From: Catellatospora coxensis
GTDB lineage: Bacteria; Actinomycetota; Actinomycetes; Mycobacteriales; Micromonosporaceae
DNA: 64,000 nt
NCBI RefSeq assembly: GCF_016862635.1
Contig: NZ_BONI01000026.1
Location: forward strand, 1 to 64,000
Reading direction: 5' to 3'
Both the position numbers and the translations under genes were made by a program. Shown piece by piece: positions 1-16,057 of this stretch; positions within the stretch are counted from its first letter, which is position 1, and the number at the start of each line of letters is the position of its first letter. A model generated the notes under the pieces. That model was given only the letters and a program-made list of their open reading frames with translations, had not been told where the DNA came from and did not search any database.

Positions 1-11
1 CTGTTGGGCAT
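1..11 (-). CDS. Start of a further gene in the peptide operon (partial)
   Basis: On the minus strand GAGGAG is followed six bases later by ATG at 11-9, after which the window ends. The spacing is right for a ribosome binding site, and the ATG lies 44 bases after the stop of the upstream solute-binding-like gene. It probably opens a fourth cistron of the radical SAM operon. Only three codons are visible, so no product can be named. Confidence 0.4.
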
Positions 12-55
12 GGCATTCTCCTCAGCTGCGAGTCGGGTCGAAGGAAGGGACCGAG

Positions 56-1462
56 TCAGGCCGCAGGTGTTCTGTCTCGGCGACGAGACCCGGCCAGCGC
101 TGAGTCATCCCGCAGGTGCACGTCCTCGAGCCTGAGCAGGTGGTCGGGATGAGGGCGCAGCCCGTGCACATGCGGCCGGGACGCGACGACCGAGGCGCCG
201 TTGCGCAGGTAGACGGCCGGGACGAGGTGGCTGAGCCGTGCCACCGCCCGCTGGTAGGCCTGGAGCCGCCGCTGCGGGTCGAGCGTTGTGCGAGCCTGCA
301 GGAGCGCATCGTCGACGACCTTGTCGCGTATCCCGGAGTAGTTGCTGCGCCCGCGGCTGTGAAAGCATTCGGTCAGGAAGATGTCGGGGTCGTCGCTGAC
401 CGCTGCGCCCACGAGGGCCATGTCAAACTGCCTCAGCCTCAAGCGTTTGATCAGCTCACCGGGTGGCAGCAGTTCCGGTCGGCAGGCGATGCCGGCTTCG
501 GCCAACTGGTGGCACAGCATGTCGATCGCCACGGGGTTGTAGGCGGCCTCGGCCACCAGACCGAGCGTTGGCCGGCCGCCCGGCCCGGCCGCGTCCGGGC
601 GGTTGTGGCCGTCATTGGCGCGTTCGAAACGTGAGCACGGCGCGACGGGGCCGCGGGGCACCTGGCCGACACCCTGGTGCGCTCGTGCCAGCACCGCGGC
701 CGGGTCGATCGCGGCAGCGGCCCGGCGGCGAAGACCACGAGAGCGGGCTGCGGACTCGACCGTGTTGAACACCAGCATGTTGATCGACAACGACGGGCAG
801 GTGCGCACCCGCACGCCATCGACGATCCCGCTGCGGGCGGACAGTTTGATCACCTCGTAGGGGCACTCGTAGGCGACGTCCACCAGGCCTGAGGCCAGCG
901 CCTCCCACGTCGCCGCACCGTCGCGGAAGGTCCGCATGATGATGGTCTGCGGACCGGGGTGCTCGGCTTGCGGCTTCGCCATGGTGATCTGGTCGTGACC
1001 GACGTCGACCAGCCGGTAGCCGGAGCCCACCGCTGCCCCCCGCTCCCAGGAGGGCGGCGATACCAGCGCCGCCTGGGCAAGGGCGAGGCGTGCGGGCAGC
1101 GACGCCAAGGGCTGGTGGGTCCGGACGGTGACCGAAGTGCCGTCGCTGTCGACCTGCTCCACGTCGGTGTACAGGCCGAGCATCGGCACCAGGCGGCGGA
1201 TCAGGTTGAACGCGACGGCGTCGGCGTCTACCGCGGTGCCGTCCTGAAATGCCCGGCCGGGCGGCACATCGATACGCCACAGGGTGCCGTCGGCGGACGC
1301 CGACCATGCCGCGGCTTGGCCCCGACGTCGCCGGTGCCCGCGTGGCGTCGTGAGGATGCCCGGGTACAGGTGCCTTCCGACCTGACAGTCGGCGAGGGTG
1401 CGCCAGCCGTCCGGCGACAGCTGCGTGATGGCGTCCTCGACGGCGACCACGATGCTGTTCAT
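56..1462 (-). CDS. Family 5 solute-binding-like protein without signal peptide
   Basis: The 468-residue protein resembles the SBP_bac_5 (oligopeptide/dipeptide-binding) fold. Residues 50-92 contain the family pattern in which a sentence like SADGTLWRIDVPPGRAFQDG leads into an AVDADAVAFNL stretch, and the C-terminal half has the usual DPDIFLTECFHSRG and NYSG segments. Family members are normally 500-550 residues and start with a Sec or lipoprotein signal. This one starts directly with MNSIVVAVEDAITQL, so it is probably cytoplasmic. Its ATG overlaps the stop of the preceding HExxH gene in an ATGA, which implies translational coupling. In this operon it may bind a peptide substrate or product inside the cell; that role is inferred. 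Confidence 0.8.
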   Translation of the reverse strand: MNSIVVAVEDAITQLSPDGWRTLADCQVGRHLYPGILTTPRGHRRRRGQAAAWSASADGTLWRIDVPPGRAFQDGTAVDADAVAFNLIRRLVPMLGLYTDVEQVDSDGTSVTVRTHQPLASLPARLALAQAALVSPPSWERGAAVGSGYRLVDVGHDQITMAKPQAEHPGPQTIIMRTFRDGAATWEALASGLVDVAYECPYEVIKLSARSGIVDGVRVRTCPSLSINMLVFNTVESAARSRGLRRRAAAAIDPAAVLARAHQGVGQVPRGPVAPCSRFERANDGHNRPDAAGPGGRPTLGLVAEAAYNPVAIDMLCHQLAEAGIACRPELLPPGELIKRLRLRQFDMALVGAAVSDDPDIFLTECFHSRGRSNYSGIRDKVVDDALLQARTTLDPQRRLQAYQRAVARLSHLVPAVYLRNGASVVASRPHVHGLRPHPDHLLRLEDVHLRDDSALAGSRRRDRTPAA

Positions 1463-2904
1463 GCGACCAGCGCCGAGTCGATATAGCGGCCGTAGTCGCC
1501 GACTGAAGGCAGAAGTTCGGCGTAGCGATACCGGCCAGCGAGGACCGGCTGATCGAAGGTGACGGTGCCGTCCGTCATGACCGCGTGCGCCGCGTGCGGG
1601 TCGGCGACGTCATAGCCGCGCAGCATGAACTGGGCGATGTCGAATTCATGCCGGGCCAGGACCCGGTGTACTTCCTCGTCGTAGGGCCGGCGGGCGCTGT
1701 CGTCGAGGCCGTCCAGCAGCGCGTTTACCGTGGCGCAGGCGCTGTCGGCCAGTCCGGGGATCTGCCGCAACGGCATCGGCAGGTCGTCGGTGATGCCCAG
1801 TGCGCATCCCCGCGCAGTGAGCTTGAGCCGTGCCCCTAGTGCCGCGAGATAGGCCAGGGTGCGCGGGCGCGCCACCTCCGGTTCGTCGCGGGTGAGCGCG
1901 ACCCGCACCAGGCACTCCAACGCGATCGTGTAGGTGGTGTGGAGCATCGTCTCCATATCGCGAAGATCGTTTTTGAACGCCGACAGGAATCGCACGTCCG
2001 CCGAAAGGTCCGGACGCTCGGTCGCGAGATAGAGGGCGAGCTTCACATGGCAGTTCTCGTGGAAAAGCTGCGCTGCGGTGGCGGCGACGTCATCGGAGTC
2101 GAGCCGTTCCTGGGACAGGCCCACGATCGCCGTCGCCGGACAGTCGAGCCGCGTGCCCATGGAGACCCTGAACCCCGGGTGGACTGTGACGAAGACGGTG
2201 TGAAGGTTGTCGAGCAGAATGGCGTAGGCGTCCTGGTCATGGGACTTCAGCAGGTCCAGCGCGCGGTCGATGTGGGCGGCGACTCGATCGAGGTCGGCCG
2301 GCCCCATCGGCAGCCTTCCTTGCGGGAAGCCGGGTAGGCACTCCTGAACGCGCGCGGCCATCCTCGGGCTGGATGCGACCGCCTCAACCGGCACCACACG
2401 CATTCCGTCGGCAGTCCGGCGATGGGCGATGCCTGCCGGCGGGAACACATCCGGCAGCTCGGCATGCAGGTCGGCGAGCAACGCCGTCTCCTCGGTGTAG
2501 TAGCCGAGCAGCTCAGGGCTTGCCGACGCGTCGACCCACCGCAGTCCTCGCGCCAGGGCGTCGACCCAAGCTCTGATCGACGTCACGTAGTACGGATCGA
2601 TCCCGTGCTGGTCGAGCCGGTCCATGACCGACCGCACCGTGCGCGTGAAGCCGGCTGAGGCGGGGCAGAGCGCGTCACAGCGATCGAGGACGTCGGCGTA
2701 GGAGGCCTTGCGGCCTTCGGCATGACGTGAGCGCGCTGTATCATATGCGGCTCGGTCTGACAGGACGGGATCGAAGAACATGGCGGCACCGCACCTTCCG
2801 GGCAGTCGAGAGGGGAACATCGATTGCGTGGCGGCCTGTCCGGCCGCAGGGCTGTCCCAGCCGCCGGGCGTATCGCCGGCAGCAGGTTGTCGTCGGCGGC
2901 TCAC
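1459..2904 (-). CDS. HExxH-type peptide-modifying enzyme (putative peptide beta-hydroxylase)
   Basis: The 481-residue protein carries HENCH at residues 282-286 (LFHENCHVKLALYL). It matches the HEXXH-motif proteins found beside radical SAM enzymes in actinobacterial peptide natural-product clusters. Members of that family have been described as 2-oxoglutarate-dependent peptide beta-hydroxylases rather than proteases; assigning that activity here is inference from family and context. The gene lies 6 bases after the radical SAM stop and overlaps the next gene by 4 bases. The start is uncertain: GTG at 2904 keeps the operon tight, while ATG at 2781 (MFFDPVLSDRAAY) begins the recognisable domain. 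No signal peptide is seen. Confidence 0.8.
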   Translation of the reverse strand: MSRRRQPAAGDTPGGWDSPAAGQAATQSMFPSRLPGRCGAAMFFDPVLSDRAAYDTARSRHAEGRKASYADVLDRCDALCPASAGFTRTVRSVMDRLDQHGIDPYYVTSIRAWVDALARGLRWVDASASPELLGYYTEETALLADLHAELPDVFPPAGIAHRRTADGMRVVPVEAVASSPRMAARVQECLPGFPQGRLPMGPADLDRVAAHIDRALDLLKSHDQDAYAILLDNLHTVFVTVHPGFRVSMGTRLDCPATAIVGLSQERLDSDDVAATAAQLFHENCHVKLALYLATERPDLSADVRFLSAFKNDLRDMETMLHTTYTIALECLVRVALTRDEPEVARPRTLAYLAALGARLKLTARGCALGITDDLPMPLRQIPGLADSACATVNALLDGLDDSARRPYDEEVHRVLARHEFDIAQFMLRGYDVADPHAAHAVMTDGTVTFDQPVLAGRYRYAELLPSVGDYGRYIDSALVA

Positions 2905-2910
2905 CTCATT

Positions 2911-4323
2911 TCATTGCACTGCCACGACCGGCAGCTGGAGTCGGCGAGGGGCATCGTGCGATGGCGAAGCCGGGTGTGATCTGGCCCAAGCCTTCAGATA
3001 CTGCGGGCCGCGCATGTCCGGACAGCCCTTCACACCGGTCGTGAACCGCGACAGCGGGCAGGCGATGCCGCCGCATGGGACGCGATACTGGCAGCCGGTG
3101 CAGCCTTGGTCGGTGAGGGCGTTCGAACCGGTCCACAGAAGGTTCTTGCCATCATCGATTACCAGCGCGCCATCCGGATCGATGCGGCCTACCTGGTTGC
3201 GCTCGTTGTCGAACACGACCGTGCACTTGTACAGCGACAGGTCGGAGCCCACGACGAACCAGTTCGGCTTGCCGGCGTAGCACGCACTGCCCATGATGCC
3301 TGGCAGCCGGTCGTACGTCGTCGTGCGAACCCCCTGTTCGGCGAGAAGCCGGTTGAGCACGAAGAAGTCGACCTCACGTGTCAGGCTGGAGGCGCATCCC
3401 GGCAGCGCGTGCCCTCCGCTGACGGTCTGCCGGTCTGATGACCAGATCTGGTGGATGTCGACGAGGAACCGGGCATCGTCGCGGATGAACCCGAGGGCGT
3501 CCGCGTCGTCGACCAGCGTGAGGATGGAGTCTCGATCGGTGTCGCGTACGTTGCACCGCAGCACGCAGTGGAACTTCTCATCGCTTTGTGCCATCGCGCG
3601 CAGGTTCTCGACGATGCGCCGGAACGTCGGCAGTCCACCGGCGGTCTTGCGCTGCGAGTCGTGAACCTGCGCCGACCCGTCGATGGTGATCTGGTAGCCG
3701 ACGACACCTGCGTCAAGCAGTGAGGTGAATAGCGCCGGCCGCAGCAGCGACCCGTTGGTCGAAATGCTCGCCGCGTACGGCAGACCGCGGCCGGCGACCG
3801 CCTGCAACGCGCGCTGCGACAGCCGTAGCACGATGTCCGCGCACAGCAGCGGTTCGCCGCCGAAGAACGCGAGCCCGAATTGCGGAGCGACCGACGCCGC
3901 GTCGTCGATCGCTTTCTCCAGAGCAGCCACGTTCGCGTCGGCCATCCGGCCCTTCGCAAACGACTCATAGCAGTAGGTGCACCGGAAGTTGCACTGCTCG
4001 GTCGGCATGACGATGAACCCGTGCGAGCGTTGCAGCGCCGCGGCGATGCGCTCGAGCACCAGTCGCTCGGTTGGCGCCGCCCGCTGTTCCTCGATCAGGA
4101 ATCCCGCCGTGTGCAGGGCGTCGCAGAGGCCGCTGTCCAGCGCTGCAGGTAACTCGAATGGCGTCGTGATCCCACTGATCGAAGCCACGGCGTCGGCGTG
4201 ATCCCGGTCGACCGGCAAGGTGACGGCAGACGCGAAGTTCACGGCTACGCCACCGTGGTCGTTGCGGAGAAACCTGGCGTCGGGACTCCACCGCCACAGC
4301 GACTCAACGCGGTTCTGAACCAT
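2911..4323 (-). CDS. Radical SAM/SPASM peptide maturase
   Basis: This 470-residue protein has the radical SAM cluster motif CNFRCTYC (Cys111, 115, 118), the GGEP motif at 155-158 and a C-terminal SPASM-like set of cysteines (348, 367, 408, 411, 417, 422, 434) for auxiliary iron-sulfur clusters. The roughly 95 residues before the barrel are typical of peptide-binding N-terminal regions in such maturases. It should install a radical-mediated crosslink or other modification on a ribosomal peptide. GGAGGG lies 8-9 bases before the ATG. It is the first gene of the operon with the HExxH protein. No precursor peptide was recognised next to it, so the substrate is unknown. Confidence 0.88.
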   Translation of the reverse strand: MVQNRVESLWRWSPDARFLRNDHGGVAVNFASAVTLPVDRDHADAVASISGITTPFELPAALDSGLCDALHTAGFLIEEQRAAPTERLVLERIAAALQRSHGFIVMPTEQCNFRCTYCYESFAKGRMADANVAALEKAIDDAASVAPQFGLAFFGGEPLLCADIVLRLSQRALQAVAGRGLPYAASISTNGSLLRPALFTSLLDAGVVGYQITIDGSAQVHDSQRKTAGGLPTFRRIVENLRAMAQSDEKFHCVLRCNVRDTDRDSILTLVDDADALGFIRDDARFLVDIHQIWSSDRQTVSGGHALPGCASSLTREVDFFVLNRLLAEQGVRTTTYDRLPGIMGSACYAGKPNWFVVGSDLSLYKCTVVFDNERNQVGRIDPDGALVIDDGKNLLWTGSNALTDQGCTGCQYRVPCGGIACPLSRFTTGVKGCPDMRGPQYLKAWARSHPASPSHDAPRRLQLPVVAVQ

Positions 4324-4687
4324 GACAGGAACCCTCCGTCCGGCTGTCCACCAGGGAGCCGAAGACAGATTATCGAGCCGATGACCTGCGGGAACTGTAT
4401 TCGTTAAATTGCTAACCCGTGCGTTTTGAACTCACGATGCGGTCGCTTGTGACCACTTGTCGGCGCGGACCTGTGCCGGATGCGCATGTCCGTCGGCCGT
4501 GGTCCGGCGCGTGCCAGCCGGCCGTGAAGGGTCCAGGCCGGACATCCGCCTCGGGAAAGGTTCCGGATGCTGCCACCGATGGGGGCCAGCCCTGCCGATG
4601 CCGGTCGTCTGCCTCGACGCGGGACGGCGTGGCGAGCGTCGGGTCCACCGCGGCGTCCACCACGCCGGGGCGCTGCTCGTCGCGAAA
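4324..4687. other. Intergenic region upstream of the radical SAM operon
   Basis: These 364 bases must contain the promoter of the radical SAM operon. Short open frames exist on both strands, but none has a convincing ribosome binding site, leader/core peptide layout or repeated aromatic core motif, so none is called. The 60 bases nearest the start codon are richer in A and T (4360-4420) than the surroundings, as expected for a promoter. Confidence 0.4.
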
Positions 4688-4725
4688 CGGGCTGTGCCGG
4701 AACCGGCTTGTTCCGGCACAGCCCG
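4688..4725 (-). terminator. Strong intrinsic terminator hairpin
   Basis: A perfect 16-bp inverted repeat, CGGGCTGTGCCGGAAC and its complement, encloses a 6-base loop (4704-4709). It lies about 50 bases after the stop of the matrixin-like gene. It separates that gene from the radical SAM operon on the same strand. Confidence 0.85.
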
Positions 4726-4777
4726 CGCGGTGGTGCTGAGATCTTCGAGACCTGGTGATAGGGCCCAGCGCCTCGGA

Positions 4778-5377
4778 TCAGACGCCGTCTTTGACCAACG
4801 CCAGGCAGTGCTGGGCCATGGTGACCAGTTGCTCCTTGGTGATGTCGAACCCGGTGATCTGGCCGTTGGCCAGGTGCCGGGAGGCGCTCATGAAGTTGTC
4901 GGTGTCGGCGACGTGGCCCAGGCCGAGGCCGTGCCCGATCTCGTGGGCCCAGGTGCGCCCGTCGGCGTTGCCGACGGTGCTCTTGCGGCTGATGAGCGAC
5001 AGGCTGGACACCGCGCCGCCGGTCACGGACTCGCCGTTGGCCCCCGTCGGAGTGACGGTGGTGGTCTGCATGTTCGGCGCGTCGACGATCATGTCGCAGA
5101 GGAAGACGACGTACCGCTTGCGGGCGCCGTTGCCGCCGACGATCTGCCGCGCCGCCTGCAGCATGACCGGCACGGTCGCCTGCGAGGTGCGGATGCAGTA
5201 GCGCTGGTCGTAGATGGCGCCGTCGGGCCGGTCGAGGTACTTGATCTCGACGTCGAACTTGACGTCCCATCCGTTGACCTGGAATGCGGTCTCGGCGGTG
5301 CCGAGCAGCATGCCGATTTTGGCGACGTCGTTGAGCGGGTTCGGGACGACGAGCGTGATGGGCAGAGTCTGGGGCAT
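4778..5377 (-). CDS. Matrixin-like zinc metalloprotease
   Basis: The 199-residue protein has the metzincin zinc motif HEIGHGLGLGH (His145, Glu146, His149, His155), followed by NFMSAS around Met163 as a likely Met-turn. The start MPQTLPITLV is chosen because GAGGAG sits six bases upstream of that ATG; the open frame extends 28 more codons without support. No signal peptide or propeptide cysteine switch is seen, which is unusual for this group and suggests a cytosolic enzyme or non-classical export. It is transcribed alone and ends at a strong hairpin, so it is probably not part of the peptide operon downstream. Confidence 0.8.
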   Translation of the reverse strand: MPQTLPITLVVPNPLNDVAKIGMLLGTAETAFQVNGWDVKFDVEIKYLDRPDGAIYDQRYCIRTSQATVPVMLQAARQIVGGNGARKRYVVFLCDMIVDAPNMQTTTVTPTGANGESVTGGAVSSLSLISRKSTVGNADGRTWAHEIGHGLGLGHVADTDNFMSASRHLANGQITGFDITKEQLVTMAQHCLALVKDGV

Positions 5378-5729
5378 CTGGTGCTCCTCACCGGGCAGGG
5401 AATCGGATACTGGTGAGAGCCGGCGCGCCACAACGGTGATACGTCGCAGATGCGATAGCACTGCGCGGCGATCGATCTTGCGAGGGACCTGCTCGTGATG
5501 CGATCACGGTGCAGGGCGTCGGAGTTCGGCGCTGTCGTCGGACGGCGAGCCGGCCAAGCGAGGAGCGAAGAAGGTCATGCACAGTTCAGGAGCAGATCGG
5601 CGCCGACGGCATGGGCGAGGCCTGGCGAGCGGCCGGCACGGTGCTCGGCCGTGAGCGGCCAGGGCTGCGCGAAGGCTCTGCTGAGCCGGCTACACTGGCG
5701 CGACTGTCACACGTGAATGAAGGACGCAC
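5378..5729. promoter_or_regulatory. Divergent intergenic region with a small palindrome
   Basis: These 352 bases separate the matrixin-like gene (minus) from a hypothetical gene (plus). No gene is supported here. CGTGAT-GCG-ATCACG at 5494-5508 is a perfect 15-base dyad and may be an operator. TACACT at 5691-5696 resembles a -10 hexamer for the plus-strand gene, whose ATG is preceded by GAAGGA. Both regulatory readings are guesses from sequence alone. Confidence 0.35.
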
Positions 5730-6383
5730 ATGGCCCGCCCCTACGATCCCGGTCCGAAACAGTTCGTCTTCGCGGTCGGTGACGGCAACGACCAGCAGGT
5801 CTCCGTGGGCGACCCGCAGGAGGCCTACGTAGCGTTCTCGGGGTTCTTCCGGGGGCGAGAGTCTGACATCTACGCCATCAGGGATGAACCGGCGGGGCAG
5901 AGTCTGGTGCTCATGCCCCGTGCAGGGGTGATCTCCCGGGTCAACGATGCGGGCCGGCCCCGGACGGAGTACCTCCAGGTCGACAGGGTCAATCGCTACC
6001 TTCCGAGCGCGATGCTGTTCTTCGAGAACGGATATGCCGGCCTCGACCGCTTCGGCCAGTGGTTCGACGACCTCGCCGACCTCGACGCGTCACCGGAGAC
6101 ACGCGGTGCCGCCCGCGCCGCCACGTTCACGACGGAACCAGCGGCGATCGAAGAAGTCGCTCGGATCTGGGCAGCCTCGGGCATCGTCGACCCGAGTGAC
6201 CAGTACTACGTCTTCTTCGACTCGCATGGCGTCGACGATGACCGAGCCGACCGAGCCGAACTGCTCAAGCTGATCGAACTCCTCGGTCTCGAACGAGTCG
6301 CCGCCCCGAACGACGCAGCCGGGGGCGAGGTCTGGGTGCGCACGGACACGCGCCTCGACGCCGAATTCGCAAGGTGGTCGTGA
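5730..6383 (+). CDS. Hypothetical protein
   Basis: The 217-residue soluble protein starts MARPYDPGPKQFVFAVGDGN, with GAAGGA seven bases before the ATG. There are no membrane segments, signal peptide or cysteine motif. The composition is acidic, with many Asp and Glu residues in the C-terminal half (DSHGVDDDRADRAELLKL). I do not recognise the family. It is monocistronic and converges on the CHAP-domain gene, with a shared hairpin between the two. Confidence 0.65.
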   Translation: MARPYDPGPKQFVFAVGDGNDQQVSVGDPQEAYVAFSGFFRGRESDIYAIRDEPAGQSLVLMPRAGVISRVNDAGRPRTEYLQVDRVNRYLPSAMLFFENGYAGLDRFGQWFDDLADLDASPETRGAARAATFTTEPAAIEEVARIWAASGIVDPSDQYYVFFDSHGVDDDRADRAELLKLIELLGLERVAAPNDAAGGEVWVRTDTRLDAEFARWS

Positions 6384-6499
6384 ACCTGTGCTGCGAGGGC
6401 TGCATCAATCTCCGTGATGCCCGCCGCGGTTCCTGGCGACCATGTGCACCCGGTGCGGTTCTGGGCGGGCCTGACCTATGACAGACATCACGGAGGAGC

Positions 6500-6536
6500 G
6501 CCACGATCCGCCGGGCGTATGTCGGCGGATCGTGGC
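6500..6536. terminator. Bidirectional terminator hairpin
   Basis: GCCACGATCCGCCG and its perfect complement form a 14-bp stem with a 9-base loop (6514-6522). It lies between the convergent genes ending at 6383 and 6585 and can serve both. Confidence 0.75.
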
Positions 6537-6584
6537 AACCCGCAGCTCAGTCCTGCGGCAACGGGTCTGCGAAAACCTTCGGGA

Positions 6585-7427
6585 TCACTTGAAACGAACG
6601 AACTGGGAGAACTGGCTGTTGGCCGTGCCCACCGACACCGTGCGGTGGCTGTAGGCCGACCCGCCGTTGTAGTTGTACTCGTCGACCTCGAACGTGCCGT
6701 TGGAGTTCACCCTGGTCACGAACGCGACGTGCCCCCAGGTGCCGCCGAGGCGGACCGCCACGTCGCCGGCCTTCGGGCTGCCGTACACCGGAATGCCGGC
6801 GCTGCGGGCGGCATTGGCCCAGTTGTTCGCATTGCCCCAGTGGACGCCGTCGTAGTAGTTGTGGAAGGCGACGCCCAGGCGGCTGCGCACGGCCCACGCC
6901 GCGAAGCTCGTGCACTGGCCCTTGTAGAAGTTCCACGGGTCGACACCGGTCGTCTGCCCGCGGTAGGGGTAGTCGTCCTTGGCGGGGTAGCTGTCGCCGC
7001 CGCCGGCGGACACGGGCTGGTGCGAGGCGTTGTTGTTCTTCAGCGAGGCGTTCAGGTTGACCTTCGCCCCGGACGCGATGTCCTGGGACGTGCCGCCGAA
7101 GTCGCTGTTGTAGTACACGCGGATCGTGCTGCCGGTGCGGTTCCACGCCGACGCCGCGTTGTTCTTGACGCACAGGCCCTGGCCGTTGCCGGCGCTCTTG
7201 AACTCGTAGCAGGTCGGCTGGGTGGCGCCATAGTCAGCCAGCGACGATCCGTGGTCGGAGATCGACCCGGCGAAGTCGCTGTTGTAGTAGTAGCAGAACT
7301 CGCCGCTGTCGCAGACGCCGTCACGCGAAGCCGCCTGGGCCGGTGTCGCGGATATGCCGACACCGGACACCGCGATGGCGATCGTCACGCCCACGGCGCG
7401 CAGCGCGCGCCCCACTCTCCCTGACAT
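6585..7427 (-). CDS. Secreted CHAP-domain cell-wall hydrolase with I36-like N-terminus
   Basis: The 280-residue protein has a Sec signal peptide (about residues 1-33, ending ATPAQAA). A cysteine-containing region follows at 35-125 and resembles the peptidase inhibitor I36 beta/gamma-crystallin-like family (repeated YYNSDF units near 48 and 106). The C-terminal CHAP domain shows Cys172 in QCTSFAAW and His233 in WGHVAFV, the expected amidase/endopeptidase residues. The start at 7427 is chosen because GGGAGGC precedes this ATG. The likely role is peptidoglycan cleavage outside the cell. An 11-bp inverted repeat lies about 40 bases upstream. Confidence 0.88.
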   Translation of the reverse strand: MSGRVGRALRAVGVTIAIAVSGVGISATPAQAASRDGVCDSGEFCYYYNSDFAGSISDHGSSLADYGATQPTCYEFKSAGNGQGLCVKNNAASAWNRTGSTIRVYYNSDFGGTSQDIASGAKVNLNASLKNNNASHQPVSAGGGDSYPAKDDYPYRGQTTGVDPWNFYKGQCTSFAAWAVRSRLGVAFHNYYDGVHWGNANNWANAARSAGIPVYGSPKAGDVAVRLGGTWGHVAFVTRVNSNGTFEVDEYNYNGGSAYSHRTVSVGTANSQFSQFVRFK

Positions 7428-7466
7428 GTTGCCTCCCCGGGTGGGAACTGGATGGACAGTGAGGCG

Positions 7467-7500
7467 AATGTACGAAGCCGACTTACACACTTCGTACATT
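7467..7500 (-). promoter_or_regulatory. 11-bp inverted repeat upstream of the CHAP gene
   Basis: AATGTACGAAG and its exact complement CTTCGTACATT are separated by 12 bases (7478-7489). The element ends 40 bases before the CHAP start codon and lies 67 bases past the M64 stop codon. There is no T-run, so an operator or structured 5' leader is more likely than a terminator. Confidence 0.55.
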
Positions 7501-7566
7501 TCCGCTACAGATGGGATGCAAGCGCGAGGCGGCCCGCAACATCACCCAAAGTGGCCCCCCGACCGG

Positions 7567-8838
7567 TCACGGTGCGGTGTAGGCGAAGGTGTACGAACCG
7601 GAGCCCGACACCGACTGCAGCAGGTACGTGTAGTACCCGGCGGTGCCGCTGTAGGTGAGCGTCTCGTCGGGGCCGCCGGTGGCGGCACTGGCCACGACCG
7701 CCCACGCGGAGCCGTTCCACTTCTGCAGTTGCAGGTTGAACTCGGCTCCGGCGGGCCCGTCCAGGCAGGCACGGTGAGTGCCCGAGGCTGCGGTGTAGTA
7801 GTAGGTGCCGTCGGGCTGGTACGCCGAACCACCGCTGGACAGGCTGCCGGTCCGGGTGTTCTGGTATCCGGCACATCCGCCGCCACCGCCGATCTTCGCG
7901 CGGATGGCCCGGTCCATGGCATCCAGGCCGACCAGGTTGAACGGCTTGCCCAGCGTGCGCATCAGCGAATCCTGCGAGGGCCGGTAGATCCCGTTGGCGT
8001 ACTGGTGCCCGCCCTGATGGCAGCCGATGACCCCGCCGTCCGGGGTGGCCCGGCCCAGGTACGAGGACCACTTGGCGCAGCCCGGCGACTTGGTGACGTT
8101 GGGCTCGCCTGGTTCGCCGCCGGTGTAGGTGGTGCCCGCGGTCCAGTACTCGTCGGCGAGCCCGCCCACCGAATGGCCCAGTTCGTGGATCGCGATCTGC
8201 CCCGCCCGGGCGTTGCCGCCCGACACCGTCGCGAGACTCGGATACCCTGCGCCGCCGTACTTGGTGGTGTTGCCGACCGCGACGATCGCGTCGACGGCAG
8301 GAGCCTGCGCGGCGTACTGCTTGGCCTTGGTCTCGTTCAGGCACAGCAGCCGCTCGATGTTGCCGCACCAGAAGTACATGTCGAGGGCGGTGTCGCGGCT
8401 GATTCCCCGGGTCGGATCGTTGTCCACCCCGGACTGCGCCGAGACGACCTCGACGAGCCACACGTTCACCGAGGCCCGATGCGTGCTCCACGGCGCGGTC
8501 GCGGCGATCTCTTCCCACTTGGCCTGGGCGTGCTGGCGTAGCAGGCCCATCTCCGAGGACGTGTACCCGTCGCCGACGATGACCAGGTCGAAGCGTTCGC
8601 TCGGCGGCCCGGTGTCCTGGATCGCCACCGTCGCGGCGGCCGCGGCCGCGGCGCGGCTGTCGGGGCTGACGGCTCCGGAGCGTTCGGCGGGCAGCAGCAT
8701 GGTCGTGATGGTGCCGTCGGGGGAGAACACCTCCCGCCACTGCCGGTCCTGCGGCGCGGCGGTCGCGGGCGCGGCGGTGAGGGTCAGGATCGCCGACAGC
8801 AGTGCGGCCGCGGCGAGTGGCAGGGGACTTCGGCGCAT
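7567..8838 (-). CDS. Secreted M64-family (IgA-peptidase type) metalloprotease
   Basis: This 423-residue exported protease has a signal peptide at 1-28 (LTAAPATAA). The M64 core has the segment DLVIVGDGYTSSEM near 84-97 and the zinc motif HELGHSVGGLADEY (His218, Glu219, His222, with Asp229/Glu230 following). From about residue 310 to the end there is a PPC-like beta domain, often found at the C-terminus of secreted proteases and removed on maturation. The start at 8838 has GAGGAGG eight bases upstream. The gene is divergent from a LysR regulator that may control it. Confidence 0.87.
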   Translation of the reverse strand: MRRSPLPLAAAALLSAILTLTAAPATAAPQDRQWREVFSPDGTITTMLLPAERSGAVSPDSRAAAAAAATVAIQDTGPPSERFDLVIVGDGYTSSEMGLLRQHAQAKWEEIAATAPWSTHRASVNVWLVEVVSAQSGVDNDPTRGISRDTALDMYFWCGNIERLLCLNETKAKQYAAQAPAVDAIVAVGNTTKYGGAGYPSLATVSGGNARAGQIAIHELGHSVGGLADEYWTAGTTYTGGEPGEPNVTKSPGCAKWSSYLGRATPDGGVIGCHQGGHQYANGIYRPSQDSLMRTLGKPFNLVGLDAMDRAIRAKIGGGGGCAGYQNTRTGSLSSGGSAYQPDGTYYYTAASGTHRACLDGPAGAEFNLQLQKWNGSAWAVVASAATGGPDETLTYSGTAGYYTYLLQSVSGSGSYTFAYTAP

Positions 8839-9026
8839 CGGCGCCTCCTCTGGGCTGGTACGGAAACGCCCGCCGTCACCGAGCCCGATACATCGATGAC
8901 GGTGTGTGGATGGCGTCTCACTGTGCCGCCCGGCATCCGCGCACCGGCAATCCCGATGTGCCATAACCGCGGTGTGATGGCTGCGCCCCGCCGGCGGCCT
9001 TCCCCGCACGCCCGGGTTGGCATAAC

Positions 9027-9989
9027 GTGCCGCTCGTGGAGCTCGAATTGCGCCATTTGCATTCGCTGTGTGTGATCGCCGACTCCGGCAGCCTGACCAA
9101 GGCCGCGACCCTGCTCGGCGTCTCGCAGCCCGCGCTCACCGCGCAGTTGCAGCGCGTGGAGCGCGAACTCGGCGCGCAGATCTTCCTGCGCGGCCGCCGC
9201 GGGGTGACCCCCACGCCGCTGGGCCAGTACCTGCTCACCCGCGCTCGCGGAGTGCTGCTGGCCATGGACGAGCTGCGCAGCGGCGCCCGCCGGCACCCGT
9301 CGACCCAGCGGCCGGTCGTCCGGCTGGGCGGGATAGCCGGCGCGGTGTCGGTCGGCCTGGCCGACCGCCTCAGCGACCTGCTGCCCGAGGCCGAGGTCCA
9401 GCTGACCACCGAGTACTCGCCCCGCCTGCTGTGGGAGCTGCTGCTGGCCGGACGCCTGGACGCCGTCGCCACGGTCGACTACCCGGGGTTTCCGCTGCGC
9501 CAGCCGGTCTCGGTCCTGGCGGAGGTCGTCGCCGTGGAGCCGGTCTTCGTCGCGATGTCGCACCAGCACCGCCTCGCCGGCCGAGACCGGGTGGAGCTGT
9601 CCGACCTGGCCGACGAGCCGTGGGCGCTGAGCCCGCCGGACGGCTCCGGCTGGCCCGACTGCTTCCTGGTCGCCTGCGAACAGGCCGGGTTCAGGCCGCG
9701 CGTGCTGTACACCGTCGCCGACGCGCAGCCGCTGCGCGAGCTGATCGCCACGCGGCGCGCGATCGCCGCCTGCCAGGCGGTCTTCGACAGCTCGGACAGC
9801 GTCGTGGTCAGGCCGCTGGCCGGCGATCCCGTGAAGATGCGGCACCTGCTGCTCTGCCGCGACGAGGGCCCGGTGGCGCACATGTTCGACGGACTGGTAC
9901 GCCTGGCCCGCGAGGCGTACTCGGCCTACGCCGGCCGCCGCCCGCACTACCAGGCCTGGCTGTGCGCCAACGGGCAGTCTGGCGACTGA
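9027..9989 (+). CDS. LysR-family transcriptional regulator
   Basis: The 320-residue protein has an N-terminal winged helix-turn-helix (residues about 7-65, including GSLTKAATLLGVSQPALTAQ) and a substrate-binding effector domain to the end. It starts at GTG 9027. LysR regulators commonly act on the divergent neighbour, here the M64 protease gene 188 bases away. That target is inferred from layout, not shown. The inducer is unknown. Confidence 0.9.
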   Translation: MPLVELELRHLHSLCVIADSGSLTKAATLLGVSQPALTAQLQRVERELGAQIFLRGRRGVTPTPLGQYLLTRARGVLLAMDELRSGARRHPSTQRPVVRLGGIAGAVSVGLADRLSDLLPEAEVQLTTEYSPRLLWELLLAGRLDAVATVDYPGFPLRQPVSVLAEVVAVEPVFVAMSHQHRLAGRDRVELSDLADEPWALSPPDGSGWPDCFLVACEQAGFRPRVLYTVADAQPLRELIATRRAIAACQAVFDSSDSVVVRPLAGDPVKMRHLLLCRDEGPVAHMFDGLVRLAREAYSAYAGRRPHYQAWLCANGQSGD

Positions 9990-10101
9990 TGCCCTGACCA
10001 CGCGCGCGTGGCGGTCGTGATGGCGTTGCGATGAGGCGCCGATGGCCCGGGGGCCGAGAGTTCATCTGCTCGGTAACCGGTCCAGCAATGGGAGACACAG
10101 C

Positions 10102-10731
10102 ATGTCGTTCAGCATTCGACGAGTGGCCGCCCTCACGGTGGTCGCGACACTAGGGACCCTGTTCTTGACGGCCGGCTCCGGTTCGGCCGCGCCGGCCGCC
10201 GCGGTCGGCGACGCCACGTCGGCCGCGGTGAGCGCCCCGGCCGGCGCCGACGCCGCCCGCATCCTCAGGGAGCTGACGCCGGGCGCGGCGACGGCCGCCG
10301 TGGACCGAAAGGCGCTGTCCGGCCAGGCCGGGGTGGGCACGCTGGCCTGGAGCTGCGGCTCCCGCTGCGACTACCAGGACCCGGCGACGTTCCCGGCCAC
10401 CTACTGCGGCCAGTACTGCTACATCGCCTGCGGCGACGACGCGGTGACCATCGACACGGCCTGGCACGGCAGCGACTACATCGAGCTGCGGTACAGCAAC
10501 TACTGCCAGACGATCTGGATCCGCGGCAACGCGTACGTGTGCTGCAACAACGTGCAGGGCGCCGCGATGAGCACCCACCCGTACGGCAACTACGGCACCA
10601 TCTACGGCACCGTGTACCTGCCCGCGGGCAACGGCGTGCGGTACTCCAAGATGCTCAACGACGCGGGACGGTGCGGCCGCGGCCAGATCTACGCCGCCGG
10701 CAGCGCCTTCGACTGGACGACCTGCTACTGA
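10102..10731 (+). CDS. Secreted cysteine-rich DUF2690-like protein
   Basis: This 209-residue protein has a Sec signal peptide (about 1-33). Its mature part has many cysteines, several spaced as CGQYCYIACGDDAVT, followed by YIELRYSNYCQTIWIRG. That order (Cys, DAVT, ELRYS, Cys, W.R) is the signature of DUF2690, a small family of actinobacterial secreted domains of unknown function. The C-terminal 60 residues add more cysteines and a YGNYGTIYGTVYLP stretch. The start is at 10102, after GGGAGA. It is monocistronic, with a hairpin just downstream. Confidence 0.75.
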   Translation: MSFSIRRVAALTVVATLGTLFLTAGSGSAAPAAAVGDATSAAVSAPAGADAARILRELTPGAATAAVDRKALSGQAGVGTLAWSCGSRCDYQDPATFPATYCGQYCYIACGDDAVTIDTAWHGSDYIELRYSNYCQTIWIRGNAYVCCNNVQGAAMSTHPYGNYGTIYGTVYLPAGNGVRYSKMLNDAGRCGRGQIYAAGSAFDWTTCY

Positions 10732-10738
10732 CCGCCTG

Positions 10739-10780
10739 CGACGGCCGGTGTCCTCGTCATCGGGGGGACACCGGCCGTCG
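10739..10780 (+). terminator. Intrinsic terminator hairpin
   Basis: A 15-bp perfect stem (CGACGGCCGGTGTCC with its complement at 10766-10780) and a 12-base loop begin 8 bases after the DUF2690-like stop codon. Confidence 0.8.
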
Positions 10781-10881
10781 TGCTGTGCCCGCCCACCAGG
10801 GGATGCGGCTGCGATGGCACGGTGATGGCCGGCCCTGCGACCTTGACGGCGTCCTTTCCCGACCCGCGGAACGAGGTACGC

Positions 10882-13800
10882 ATGTCTTCCCGCCCACGGC
10901 CTGGCCTGCCGGCACTGGTGATGCTCACCGTGCTGGCGTTGCTGCCGCAGCCGGCCGCCGCCGCCCCGGCGCCACCGGCCGTCCGGCCGCCATCCGACGC
11001 CGCCCCTGCCGCCACCGCCGAGGACGCGCCGATGGCCGTCGCGCCCGCCGAACGGGACGCCGTGCTCGGCTCCGGCTGGCGCAAGTCCACCGACATCGCC
11101 TGGACCACCTCAGGTGACGCCAACGGGTTCCACATCCTGGCCGCGGCCGCCGACACCGGTTACACGTGGCGTGCGGTCGCCTCGCTGTCCGAGCCGGGGT
11201 TCGAGGCCGACCAGTGGATCGGCAACGCCTGCCTGTCCGGTTCGGGTCGACGGCTCGCGGTCGTGTACGCGCCGCGCACGTTCACCAACGAGGAGCGGCT
11301 GTTCGACCGGGGTGGGTTCGCCGCGGTCGTCGACCTGGTGTCCGGCACGGTCGTCAAGCTGCCCGTGATGTCGAGTCTGGCCTACTTCACTCCGGGCTGC
11401 GGCGCGGGCTCCACCGCCGTGCTGTCGCAGTTCGGCGGGGTCGCCGGGCAGACCCGGCTGCTGTCGGTGGACCTCGACACGGCCAAGGTCGCCGCGCCGG
11501 TCACGGTCGGCATCGAGCTCACCTCGGCGGTGCCGGTGCCCGGCGGGATCGTCGCGGCCGCCAGGGACCAGCTGGTACGCGTCGACAGGACCGGGCGGGC
11601 CAGCGGCCTGGCCCGCACCGCGGGCGTCGCGTACGGCCTGGTGCCGGACGCGGCGGGCCGGGTCGTGTTCCTGGAGCACGCCGGTGACCAGGCACGGGTC
11701 CGCCTCGCCGACGGCGCCCGCCGGTCGGTCGCGTCGACGCTGGCCCAGGGCGCGCGGACCGGCCTGGGGCTGACCCGCGCCGCGGGTGGCCGGGTCTTCA
11801 TCACCGGCGAGACCGCCACCCTGCCGGCGGCGCTGCCGGCGGGGATCACCCGGGTGCCCGCCCCGCCGGCGGCGACGCTGTCCAGCCGCGGCGAGCTGGT
11901 GCTGACCCGGGTCGGGTTCGCCGGTGACAACCGGCAGCTCGCCTCGGATCCGTCGGTGCCACGTGCCGTCGCCGTCACCGCCAGGGTCCGCAAGACCGGC
12001 CGGGAGGTCAGGTTCGGGGTGCACGCCTCGGCGGCGCGGCCGGGCAGCACGCCGCCGGGCCGGCTGGCGCACCCGAAGCTGTCGGTGTCGCGTCCGGCGG
12101 GGCTGCGCGTCGCTCCCTCGCTGGCGAGCCCCGCGTCGCCGGTGGAGGACGAGACCGAGCGCTACTGCGCGGTGCCTCGCAACGATCCGCGCAACCAGGC
12201 CCTGCAGCCGCGGCCGCGTCAGGTGGAATGGGCCGTCGACCAGGCGGTCACCGGCACCGGGTACGCGTCGCGGCCCGCGAACTGGATGAACCTGGGCATG
12301 CCGGCGTACTCACCGCTGGGGCTGTTCCCGCGGGTGCCGCTGGCGGGCGGCGGCCGGGTGCCGGCGCAGATCTACCTGGGCATCGTCGCCCAGGAGTCGA
12401 ACATGTGGCAGGCGGCGCGGTTCGCCGTGCCCGGCGTGACCGCCAACCCGCTGATCGGCAACTTCTACGGCCTGGAGATCTACAACAGCACTCCGGCCGA
12501 CGACTGGGACATCAACTGGGCCAAGGCGGACTGCGGTTACGGTGTCGGGCAGGTCACCGACGGCATGCGGCTGGCAGGCAAGGAGAAGCCCGGCGAGGTC
12601 GCGCTGCCGTATCAGACGCAGCGCGCCGTGGCGCTGGACTTCGCCGTGAACGTCGCCGCGGGGCTGCAGATCCTGCAGCGCAAGTGGAACGAGACCCGGA
12701 ACGCCGGGCTGGTCGTCAACGACGGCGACGCGGCCAACATCGAGAACTGGTTCTACGCCGTGTGGGCGTACAACAGCGGGTTCTACCCGGAGTCGACGGC
12801 GTCGCAGCACAACGGTGCGTGGGGCGTGGGCTGGGCCAACAACCCGATCAACCCGAAGTATCCGGCGGGCCGCCCGGCGTTCCTGGCGAGCAGCTACGAC
12901 GACGCGCGCAATCCGCAGTGGTGGCCGTACCCGGAGAAGGTCATCGGGTTCGCGGCGTACCCGCCGAGCCTGCCTGACGGCGTGGACACGCTCGTGAGCG
13001 CGTACCGGGCGGCGTGGTGGGGCGGGGCGTCGCCGCTGATGAACCGGCTGCTCGCCAAGCCGCCGGTCGAGCTGTTCTGCGACACCACCAACACCTGCCA
13101 GCCGGGCGGGCAGTTCCCGCCGCAGGACCCCGAGGTCGTCGGAGAGCCGGCCGGGCCCTGCTACCACAAGAACATCTTCAACCAGTACGACCTCAAGTGC
13201 TGGTACCACCGGCCGGCGCAGTGGAAGACGTGCGTCGACGACTGCGGCTACGAGCTGCTGCGCTTCGACCCGGGCTGGGAGTACCAGCCCGACGCGGCGT
13301 CCTACCCGCCGCGCTGCGACCGGGGCGGCCTGCCCGGCGGTGCGCTGGTCGTCGACGACGTGCCGGACGGGACGCCGTCGGTGCGGACCGGGTGCACGCC
13401 GCCGACGAGCAACGGCACGTTCGAGCTGGAGTTCGGTGGGTCGGGCGGAACGTACCCAGCGAAGATCGACTTCCATCAGATCGGTGGCGGGTTCGGCGGG
13501 CACTTCTGGTTCGCCCACACCCGCCCGGCCGGGGCCGACGGCGGGAAGATGAAGGTCAGCGGCACGTGGGCGCTGAACCGGCCGCTGGCCCAGTGGGTGC
13601 GGTTCATGGTGCACCTGCCCGACCACGGCGCCCACACCCGGCTGGCGGCGTACGAGATCGATCTCGGCGGCGGGTTCACCGGCCGCAAGCGCATCGTGCA
13701 GCAGCGGGTGCAGCAGAACCGGTGGGTGTCGCTCGGCGCGTTCCCGGTCAGCGGGGTGCCGCGCATCCGGCTGACCAGCGACGCCGGCGACGGCACCGGC

Positions 13801-14877
13801 GAGGAGGACATCGCGTGGGACGCGGTGGCGTTCGAGCCGCTGGCGCAGCGTCCGCGGCACCAGATCGTCGCGCTCGGCGACTCGTACGCCTCCGGTGAGG
13901 GCGCCTCGTCGACGGGCGGGGAGAACTACTACCGGGAGACCGACGTCAAGCAGAAGATCTTCGTCGCCGGCGACAACGAGAAGATCCTCTACCAGAACCT
14001 GTGCCACCGCTCGGAGTACGCCTGGTCGCGGCAGGCGGTGCTGACCGACGACGGGCGCTCCATCGGCGAGCGGGCCGACACCTGGGATCCGCAGATGGAC
14101 TTCCACCTGCGGGCGTGTTCGGGTGCCGAGTCGGAGAACATCCTGCCGTACTACTCGGTGCCGGCGGACGAGCTCAAGCCGCGCAACGGCGACGGGCAGA
14201 TGGGCGACTACCGGTTGTGGGGTGAGCCGACCCAGCTGGACCAGGGCTATGTCGACGAGTTCACGACCCTGGTGACCCTGTCGATCGGCGGCAACGACGC
14301 CCGCTTCGTGCCGATCCTGACCGAGTGCATCCTGGGGTCGGACTGCAAGAACAAGGTCCTCGACGGTGACACCGAGGTGCTGCGGATCGCCGAGCCGGCG
14401 TACCTGGCAGGGCCGTTCAAGGCGTCGGTGGTGTCGGTGCTCAGGGAGATCCACAAGAAGGCCCCGAATGCGAGGATCATGTTGATGGGCTATCCCCGGC
14501 TGCTGGAGGACACCCTCGAATGCGACCTGCTGTTCGGCGACCTGGACGTCGACTGGCTCACCGAGACCGCCGACCTGGTCGCCGCGCGGATGCAGGACGC
14601 CGTGGTCGAGATCAAGGGGGAGTTCCCGGGACTGCAGGTCACCTTCGCGAACCCGATCTCGGACTTCAGCAGCTCCGGCGTGTGCGGCGCGCACGAGTCG
14701 ATCCACCGGATCGTGACCGTGCTGACCCCGGGTGAGGAGGGCCCGCTGCCCGGGTTCTTCCCCGAGGGATGGAACGCGCTGGGCAAGTCCCAGCAGTCCT
14801 TCCACCCGACCGTGTCGGGCGCGAACATCTACGCCCGCCGCATGCGCGACACGCTCTACGACCTCTGGGGGATGTGA
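10882..14877 (+). CDS. Secreted multidomain transglycosylase-like / SGNH hydrolase fusion
   Basis: This 1331-residue exported protein starts at ATG 10882 (GAGG upstream) with a signal peptide of about 28 residues. In order it appears to have a beta-propeller-like region (about 60-350); a lytic-transglycosylase-like region around 470-690 with AQESN near 504 and a later CGYGVGQVTDGM; a golvesin C-terminal-like beta domain about 845-990; and an SGNH/GDSL esterase domain from 995 to the end. The SGNH blocks are GDSYASGEG (block I, near 999), GGND (near 1136) and FHPT (near 1307). A cell-wall or polysaccharide deacetylation and cleavage role is plausible, but the substrate is unknown. Domain borders are approximate. 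Confidence 0.8.
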   Translation: MSSRPRPGLPALVMLTVLALLPQPAAAAPAPPAVRPPSDAAPAATAEDAPMAVAPAERDAVLGSGWRKSTDIAWTTSGDANGFHILAAAADTGYTWRAVASLSEPGFEADQWIGNACLSGSGRRLAVVYAPRTFTNEERLFDRGGFAAVVDLVSGTVVKLPVMSSLAYFTPGCGAGSTAVLSQFGGVAGQTRLLSVDLDTAKVAAPVTVGIELTSAVPVPGGIVAAARDQLVRVDRTGRASGLARTAGVAYGLVPDAAGRVVFLEHAGDQARVRLADGARRSVASTLAQGARTGLGLTRAAGGRVFITGETATLPAALPAGITRVPAPPAATLSSRGELVLTRVGFAGDNRQLASDPSVPRAVAVTARVRKTGREVRFGVHASAARPGSTPPGRLAHPKLSVSRPAGLRVAPSLASPASPVEDETERYCAVPRNDPRNQALQPRPRQVEWAVDQAVTGTGYASRPANWMNLGMPAYSPLGLFPRVPLAGGGRVPAQIYLGIVAQESNMWQAARFAVPGVTANPLIGNFYGLEIYNSTPADDWDINWAKADCGYGVGQVTDGMRLAGKEKPGEVALPYQTQRAVALDFAVNVAAGLQILQRKWNETRNAGLVVNDGDAANIENWFYAVWAYNSGFYPESTASQHNGAWGVGWANNPINPKYPAGRPAFLASSYDDARNPQWWPYPEKVIGFAAYPPSLPDGVDTLVSAYRAAWWGGASPLMNRLLAKPPVELFCDTTNTCQPGGQFPPQDPEVVGEPAGPCYHKNIFNQYDLKCWYHRPAQWKTCVDDCGYELLRFDPGWEYQPDAASYPPRCDRGGLPGGALVVDDVPDGTPSVRTGCTPPTSNGTFELEFGGSGGTYPAKIDFHQIGGGFGGHFWFAHTRPAGADGGKMKVSGTWALNRPLAQWVRFMVHLPDHGAHTRLAAYEIDLGGGFTGRKRIVQQRVQQNRWVSLGAFPVSGVPRIRLTSDAGDGTGEEDIAWDAVAFEPLAQRPRHQIVALGDSYASGEGASSTGGENYYRETDVKQKIFVAGDNEKILYQNLCHRSEYAWSRQAVLTDDGRSIGERADTWDPQMDFHLRACSGAESENILPYYSVPADELKPRNGDGQMGDYRLWGEPTQLDQGYVDEFTTLVTLSIGGNDARFVPILTECILGSDCKNKVLDGDTEVLRIAEPAYLAGPFKASVVSVLREIHKKAPNARIMLMGYPRLLEDTLECDLLFGDLDVDWLTETADLVAARMQDAVVEIKGEFPGLQVTFANPISDFSSSGVCGAHESIHRIVTVLTPGEEGPLPGFFPEGWNALGKSQQSFHPTVSGANIYARRMRDTLYDLWGM

Positions 14878-14891
14878 CCCGGAACCGACCA

Positions 14892-14923
14892 GGGCCGGGA
14901 CAGGGCGGATCCTGTCCCGGCCC
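14892..14923. terminator. Bidirectional terminator hairpin
   Basis: GGGCCGGGACAGG and its perfect complement flank a 6-base loop (14905-14910). It lies in the 57-base gap between convergent genes ending at 14877 and 14935. Confidence 0.82.
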
Positions 14924-14934
14924 CGCCGGTGTGC

Positions 14935-15825
14935 TCACGGCCGCCGGACGCTGACCTGTCCGAGCAGGACGTGCACGATGGCGGACAGGTCGGCGACGGT
15001 GCGGCCGAGGCTGTGCAGCAGCTCGCTGTGGGCCAGCCCGTCGAAGCCGGCGTCGGCCGGCGGGTCCGCCTCGGCGCCGAGCAGGCGGCGCTCCTGGGCG
15101 AGCACGTCCTGCCCCGGCTGCAGGCCGAGCTCTTCGGCCAGCCGCGCCCGGAGCGTACGCAGCGCCTGCAGCCCGTCGGCGGTGCGCCCGCAGTGGTGCA
15201 GCGCCTGCGCCAGCCGCACGTGCAGCCCCTCGTGGTAGGGGTACAGCGCCACCCACGAGGTGAGGTCGGCCAGGATCCGGCCGTGCCCGGCCCGCGCGAA
15301 CTCCAGCACGACGAGCCGTTCGATGGCCCGCATCCGGGTCTCGCGAAGGCTCGTCGCCACACCGCGCAGCAGCGCGGAGTCGGCGTCCTCGAGCGCGTCG
15401 CCCTGCCACAGCGCCAGCGCCGCGCGCAGCCGGGCCACCGCGCGTTCGGCCGCGCCGCCGGCGGCGTCGGCCTCGGCCTGCCGGCACAGCCGCTGGAAAC
15501 GCAGCGCGTCGACCCGGTCGTCGTCGAGTTCGAGCATGTAGTGCGGCGGCCGCCGGACGACCGAGAACGCCAGCCCGGCCTTGGTGATGCTGCCGGTGAG
15601 CAGCCCGACACAGTTCTGGACCTGCTGGCGGGCGGTGGCCGGCGGCTCGGTGTCCCACATCGCGTCGATGAACCGGTCGACGGAGACCAGTCCGTTGGCA
15701 TTGAGCAGCAGTATCGCGAGCATGCGGCGATGGCGCGCGCCGGTCACCGGCCGGTAGCCCGCCGCCGACCGGAACGTCATCGGGCCGAGGATGCGGAAGT
15801 CGGTGGCAACGTCTGACTCGGACAT
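14935..15825 (-). CDS. SARP-type (BTAD) transcriptional regulator
   Basis: The 296-residue protein has an OmpR-like winged-helix DNA-binding domain at about 8-100 (FRILGPMTF onward) and a bacterial transcriptional activation domain at about 105-255 (VDALRFQRLC through LAEELGLQPGQDV). This is the short SARP layout without an ATPase domain. AAGGAG lies five bases before the ATG. It is divergent from a long AfsR-type regulator, and the two share a 232-base promoter region with 11-bp repeats. SARPs usually activate secondary-metabolite genes; the target here is not evident. Confidence 0.88.
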   Translation of the reverse strand: MSESDVATDFRILGPMTFRSAAGYRPVTGARHRRMLAILLLNANGLVSVDRFIDAMWDTEPPATARQQVQNCVGLLTGSITKAGLAFSVVRRPPHYMLELDDDRVDALRFQRLCRQAEADAAGGAAERAVARLRAALALWQGDALEDADSALLRGVATSLRETRMRAIERLVVLEFARAGHGRILADLTSWVALYPYHEGLHVRLAQALHHCGRTADGLQALRTLRARLAEELGLQPGQDVLAQERRLLGAEADPPADAGFDGLAHSELLHSLGRTVADLSAIVHVLLGQVSVRRP

Positions 15826-15958
15826 CGGACTCCTTCACGGGCACGCTGTTCGGGCGAGCGTGAGATCTCTGGTCGGCGTCGGGAGCCGCCCTCGCCGACA
15901 GGACTATTGAGACGATCGAGCGATGGTCCATCTTGGAGACGAGGTGCTGCCACGGTCT

Positions 15959-15991
15959 TACCATCGCGCTACCATCGCGCTACCATCGCCC
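15959..15991. repeat. Three tandem 11-bp repeats, probable SARP operator
   Basis: TACCATCGCGC occurs at 15959-15969 and 15970-15980, with a third copy (TACCATCGCCC) at 15981-15991. An inverted GCGATGGT is found at 15920-15927. SARP proteins are known to bind direct repeats spaced by 11 bp, one helical turn, near the -35 region. The array lies between two divergent SARP genes, 67 bases before the GTG at 16058. Confidence 0.65.
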
Positions 15992-16057
15992 GGATGACGA
16001 GCCTGGCCACCTGACACCGGCCCGGCCACCGCGGCGTTGCATGCTCGGGGAAGTGAC

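Follow-up and report, generated by a model that had tools for sequence, protein, structure and literature searches.

A contig-edge operon with a SPASM maturase, a putative HExxH hydroxylase and a solute-binding protein as a candidate RiPP locus

What would a bacterial operon make that encodes a radical SAM/SPASM maturase, a HExxH protein and a solute-binding protein, and beside which no peptide substrate is seen? The question is raised by the first genes of a 64,000-nucleotide stretch of Catellatospora coxensis DNA, analysed here as a whole and called the window. According to the accessible text of three papers, the αKG-HExxH enzymes ChlB, BpmH/BipH, PflC/PosC and PesO hydroxylate RiPP precursors (PMC12636437, PMC12707348, PMC13060819). 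These enzymes form a recent class, and the SPASM maturases make up a large class. A stand-alone pair of the two would add to the range of doubly modified peptides, and a cytosolic solute-binding protein fixed by gene overlap to modifying enzymes would suggest a new way of carrying peptide intermediates.

The products of the gene set probably act on a small peptide, first cross-linking and then hydroxylating it; the gene for this peptide may lie past the end of the assembled sequence. We give an even chance to the reading in which the locus is the front part of a RiPP maturation operon, with its precursor encoded by the gene that starts at position 11 or by a later operon gene missing from the assembly. 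In this reading the peptide would first receive a radical cross-link from the SPASM maturase. The αKG/Fe HExxH protein would then β-hydroxylate, or otherwise oxidise, a residue of the peptide, and the third protein, which has an OppA/DppA-type binding fold and would be retained in the cytosol, would hold the peptide or a fragment of it, or hand it over between the enzymes or to an exporter. The sequence itself shows the gene identities by family or fold, the gene order, the overlap, the lack of a signal peptide and the contig edge; the peptide substrate (from relatives), the types and order of the reactions, the role of the binding protein and the position of the precursor are inferred. The initial annotation is thus confirmed in what it observed and partly supported in its interpretation. 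What limits this assessment is that it comes from one incomplete locus, a single case whose precursor is missing.

Layout of the locus at the contig edge

The three genes are minus-strand ORFs standing head to tail (Table 1). The initial annotation had taken them for a SPASM maturase, a HExxH protein and a solute-binding protein, and these identities are borne out by the reading frames and by family matches, the one to TIGR04267 falling just under its cutoff. Translational coupling, which had been proposed for the whole set, stands firmly where the HExxH stop and the solute-binding protein start overlap as ATGA, whereas the maturase/HExxH junction is less firm and depends on the start chosen. 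GTG 2904 lies 6 nt past the maturase stop; the alternative ATG 2820 (Met29) is aligned with the first Met of the Rhizobium homologues and would leave a gap of about 90 nt after the maturase. Judged by this alignment, the ATG appears to fit the HExxH homologues better.

Table 1. Features of the operon and its upstream flank, in window positions
Feature	Positions	Strand	Remarks
Next operon gene, cut by the contig end	1..11	-	First codons ATG CCC AAC
Family-5 solute-binding protein (SBP_bac_5)	56..1462	-	468 aa; no signal peptide
αKG-HExxH-type putative peptide hydroxylase	1459..2904	-	481 aa; start GTG 2904 or ATG 2820
HENCH motif, predicted metal site	2047..2061	-	
Radical SAM/SPASM maturase	2911..4323	-	470 aa; ORF and Radical_SAM PF04055 match
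Operon upstream region	4324..4687	-	GGAGGG-type ribosome site before 4323
16-bp perfect inverted repeat, hairpin without T run	4688..4725	.	Closes the upstream gene

The further gene that had been noted at position 11 is indeed present, its ATG standing 44 nt after the solute-binding protein stop and 6 nt behind GAGGAG, the strongest ribosome site in the operon. Since the contig starts at window base 1, this gene was cut by the assembly and not merely by the window edge; the source genome comprises 9.35 Mb in 222 contigs, with completeness rated 99.98%. An exact search of this genome with the first 24 bases returned the window only, with 4400 bases as query no overlapping end of another contig turned up, and no recognisable operon continuation was seen among the frames open at the edge of 280 of the 442 contig ends other than those of the contig itself (103 contigs in full length, 5 over their first 20 kb and 69 over their first 5-6 kb). 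The ends inspected were those passing a third-position GC filter, which retains higher-GC ends (54 rows from 220 ends, 8 more rows and a filtered list drawn from 60 ends), so that the failure to find a continuation is weak. An ABC exporter at the edge of contig C152 was considered as the continuation and rejected, its neighbours looking like core genes in our reading.

Window 4400-16400 is partly present in 10 genus relatives, in scattered places, so that the left neighbour is not predictable from them. In the upstream region itself (4324-4687), a consensus scan found no sigma-70-like promoter. Farther on, window 4778-5461 encodes a metzincin-like (metalloprotease-like) protein with the 16-bp hairpin at its end and with family matches that are all sub-cutoff, and window 6585-7499 encodes a secreted-looking protein in which an I36 inhibitor-type domain is followed by a CHAP domain.

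A solute-binding protein with no signal peptide

The third protein matches SBP_bac_5 (PF00496) at 65 bits against a cutoff of 32.4, and its best NCBIfam match is the nickel-peptide binding family Opp5A/NikA. Its match to GsiB (1uqw) begins at residue 3 in the window protein and at residue 26 in GsiB, and its start stands 3 residues ahead of GsiB's first mature-domain strand. Neither an export or lipoprotein signal nor a lipobox position was found; the first 60 residues contain no hydrophobic stretch, their top 19-residue hydropathy being 0.48, and no in-frame upstream start (ATG, GTG, TTG, CTG, ATT, ATC or ATA) occurs before a stop. Lacking a signal peptide as well as any upstream codon at which translation could begin, the protein, judged from its sequence, should be cytosolic, a feature missed by the initial annotation; it is linked to the enzymes through the ATGA shared with the HExxH gene.

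It may instead be supposed that the binding protein belongs to a Dpp/Nik-type uptake system whose substrate is the product, some metal or a signal peptide and whose permeases are encoded beyond position 1, only the two enzymes being biosynthetic. The SBP_bac_5 and Opp5A/NikA matches and the continuation of the operon past the contig edge agree with this, but a protein devoid of signal peptide, lipobox position and alternative start would remain in the cytosol and cannot serve an importer, and we regard uptake as unlikely. Going by its fold and the missing signal, the protein may rather serve the peptide as a carrier or adaptor and have no part in uptake. More specifically, we propose tentatively, and with a limited chance of being right, that a peptide-binding OppA-type protein was recruited to the cytosol as a dedicated carrier of RiPP intermediates: the hydroxylase would receive the cross-linked peptide from it, or an exporter the cleaved product. 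If true, RRE domains would be joined by a novel type of RiPP partner protein; no solute-binding protein in a RiPP setting was found in searches of open-access paper listings.

The maturase, its relatives and the search for a precursor

Radical SAM/SPASM maturases are recognised by a CxxxCxxC motif together with the spacing of the SPASM cysteines. In the window protein the motif is formed by Cys 111/115/118, with C-terminal Cys at 348, 367, 408, 411, 417, 422 and 434, and the protein matches Radical_SAM (PF04055) at 52.6 bits against a cutoff of 29.5 and the radical SAM domain of ChlB with E 2.5e-5. It carries an N-terminal extension of about 100 residues that is missing from several relatives; an RRE-like leader-binding N-terminal domain gave no Pfam match, and the single-sequence model is weak (pLDDT 40). 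The top NCBIfam matches are peptide-maturase families (TIGR04463, geopeptide, Clo7bot, CefB and PapB), all far under their cutoffs (143.3 bits against 525, E 9e-42, for TIGR04463; 83 bits against 340, E 1.9e-23, for PapB), and no named maturase family is reached at curated score. Non-peptide radical SAM families rank below them, and a grouping with such enzymes, which had been considered damaging to the proposal beforehand, was not observed. PADLOC gave only matches of viperin type, to the radical SAM core.

Maturase matches occur in 105 of 72,556 records of a plasmid collection, none at 60% identity or more, and the closest relatives (about 34-37% identity) lie on plasmids of Deinococcus, Sinorhizobium, Streptomyces, Bradyrhizobium and Acetobacter. 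Eleven relative loci, taken from the plasmid matches or their relatives, were examined, and seven of them (Deinococcus twice, Sinorhizobium, Streptomyces twice, Bradyrhizobium and Acetobacter) have a nearby frame of 60-86 residues with Cys near its end, directly upstream in five loci; in both Deinococcus loci it stands on the opposite strand, some 1.3 kb upstream. As one Streptomyces locus has two such candidate precursors, there are eight peptides in total over the seven loci; the leader D-x-G-[RK]-[VI]-[VI]-[IL]-x-x-P-E-[LF] is common to six of them, those of Bradyrhizobium and Acetobacter being divergent. Short frames with a DxGrVVIxDPEL leader and a C-terminal Cys stand near plasmid SPASM maturases of Deinococcus, Sinorhizobium and Streptomyces (L005:6257-6451, L006:1544-1726, L007:7142-7905, L008:7706-7900, L226:2216-2401), and are likely to form a precursor family that spans phyla. 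On the plasmid of Deinococcus sp. KNUC1210 (L226:1-4879), lantibiotic dehydratase pieces, two short candidate peptides, a LLM-class oxidoreductase and a radical SAM maturase were also observed.

In a 12-row maturase tree, a split supported at 100/99 separates the window maturase and the seven relatives with a candidate precursor from the remaining four; the branch of the window maturase is long (2.46), and no closer placement is supported. Since each of the seven relatives on this side has a short candidate precursor, the tree supports, by analogy, a peptide substrate for the window maturase. Homologous loci devoid of any conserved short frame had been named beforehand as speaking against the proposal; among the loci of maturase relatives, 7 of 11 have such a frame, and for the whole operon no second copy was found in the genomes sampled. 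Neither a HExxH nor a solute-binding protein is annotated beside the tree-side maturases in the examined loci, and Sinorhizobium neighbours of 442 and 494 aa, tested as these two, were rejected. The maturases of a R. etli locus, where a SPASM maturase stands with a JmjC protein, and of a Methylomagnum locus, where one stands with a 2OG-Fe(II) oxygenase, fall on the opposite side of the tree. The Rhizobium etli plasmid operon (L230:3527-8829), with a 77-aa frame, radical SAM/SPASM, JmjC and GNAT genes, is possibly a separate RiPP cluster.

That no precursor is visible in the window was confirmed by a frame scan and by a leader profile. In the gap at 4324-4777, a scan for frames of 15-150 aa with a Shine-Dalgarno match of at least 4 nt gave one 37-aa minus-strand frame devoid of Cys and one 63-aa opposite-strand frame, neither of them precursor-like. 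The leader profile was built from the eight candidate peptides, so that its matches to those eight are by construction; the Rhizobium HExxH loci gave no partner, nor did the window, whose best match (E 0.68, 6.3 bits) lies in a 1-kb frame, and no precursor was found in all 222 contigs of the source genome, where the best match (E 1.7) falls within an open frame of 520 aa. As the locus is cut at position 1, the absence is not final. The precursor could also be encoded elsewhere in the genome and be of a kind invisible to the relatives' profile, since the long branch and the N-terminal extension absent from several relatives mean that the leader may differ. We hold this to be improbable: all seven relatives on the same tree side have a short candidate frame nearby, and an operon running on at position 11 offers a simpler home for the precursor.

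The HExxH protein, the spread of the operon and known systems

The second protein scores 38.9 bits (E 8.5e-10) against mod_HExxH TIGR04267, missing the cutoff of 40 by 1.1 bits, and a Rhizobium relative scores 73.6 bits. Its HExxH motif is intact as HENCH (residues 282-286). An AlphaFold2 model, made from an alignment of 11 Rhizobium relatives, is weak (mean pLDDT 61.3). Five of its 257 Foldseek matches at E<=10 have E<=0.001, namely four chains of 8s5f (the ChlB HExxH domain, titled as a novel αKG-dependent oxygenase) and 22ob 'SjiH-Ni', the best ChlB HExxH-domain match having E 3.2e-5 and the TM-scores being 0.30-0.37 of the query. Neither structure was recovered by a sequence-profile search against PDB chains, and a literature search on SjiH function found nothing. 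By motif and modelled fold the protein looks like an αKG-HExxH putative hydroxylase, which agrees with its earlier description as peptide-hydroxylase-like.

The closest relatives have 30-35% identity over nearly the whole protein and occur in 67 of the 72,556 plasmid records, all of them Rhizobium, Neorhizobium or Sinorhizobium. A pattern scan of genome contigs yielded 14 Rhizobiales loci, and since only two peptide patterns were scanned it is a weak negative for non-Rhizobiales groups. Among the 11 of these 14 that were aligned, the motif reads HExxH in two, HExxN in seven and HQxxH in two, the rest of the protein being well conserved. With the motif broken in 9 of 11 relatives, the HExxH family is not always catalytic, and the motif-broken Rhizobium proteins may be a non-catalytic branch of the hydroxylase family.

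This loss lends some colour to the view that the window protein acts as a peptidase, or as a scaffold without catalytic function, and not as a hydroxylase; HExxH is also the zincin motif, and PflC, itself an αKG-HExxH enzyme, is described in the accessible text of its paper as also hydrolysing leaderless peptides (PMC12636437). The motif is nevertheless intact here, no Pfam peptidase match was found, and the significant fold matches are to 8s5f and SjiH, which makes this view distinctly improbable.

The HExxH protein was found only in its own genome among 298 genomes of the order, 354 of the family and 396 of the phylum, sets that overlap and each include the source genome; the maturase at E<=1e-35 occurs in 1 of 396 genomes and the solute-binding protein at E<=1e-30 in 1 of 296, the best 4-5 candidates per genome being scored in these searches. 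The wider-relative search gave no match in viral contigs. The GC3 of the three operon genes is 0.81-0.86, that of three neighbours 0.92, 0.82 and 0.92. The single occurrence, the GC3 and the scattered flanking genes fit a gained, rarely kept cluster. That the genes are a decaying remnant, acquired and left with no precursor and no product, would suit this rarity, the flanks scattered in 10 genus relatives and a GC3 below the 0.92 of two of the three neighbours, but is very unlikely, because the three frames are long, intact and overlapping, contain no stop and keep their Cys and HExxH motifs complete.

In favour of the RiPP maturation operon we count the family and fold matches, the intact HExxH motif, the tree side of the maturase, the ATGA overlap and the continuation of the operon at position 11, the signal-less start of the binding protein, the published action of αKG-HExxH enzymes on RiPP precursors, and the pairing of a SPASM maturase with an αKG/Fe-type oxygenase in two loci (R. 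etli and Methylomagnum); counted against it are the precursor not found, the sub-cutoff TIGR04267 score, the weak HExxH model, the broken motifs and ThiF-like partner in Rhizobium, the narrow basis (fold and missing signal) for the role of the binding protein, and the maturase tree, in which the JmjC/2OG loci lie opposite the window maturase.

Known systems resemble the locus in parts. In all three annotated Rhizobium loci a ThiF-like gene follows the HExxH relative, so that the HExxH protein is partnered there by a ThiF/MoeB-like adenylyltransferase instead of a radical SAM enzyme; genes for S8 peptidase, PAP2 and SARP proteins lie upstream. TIGR04463 and PapB-like SPASM maturases are the best NCBIfam matches, yet the window maturase is a member of neither family, and the plasmid maturases of Deinococcus, Sinorhizobium, Streptomyces, Bradyrhizobium and Acetobacter have a candidate precursor nearby, which is absent at the window locus. 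BipH/BpmH, PflC/PosC and PesO are likewise stand-alone αKG-HExxH enzymes in RiPP clusters, but in the accessible text of their papers these clusters are centred on MNIO enzymes and no solute-binding protein is described. Similar in the two activities expected is ChlB, a fused radical SAM and αKG-HExxH protein responsible for cyclophane formation and β-hydroxylation (structures 8s5f and 9gm3), to whose HExxH fold and radical SAM domain the window proteins match; the window differs in having two separate genes, an extra, presumably cytosolic solute-binding protein, another maturase subfamily and no precursor found. What sets the locus apart from known systems is the stand-alone pair of maturase and HExxH protein, this type of maturase and the putatively cytosolic binding protein.
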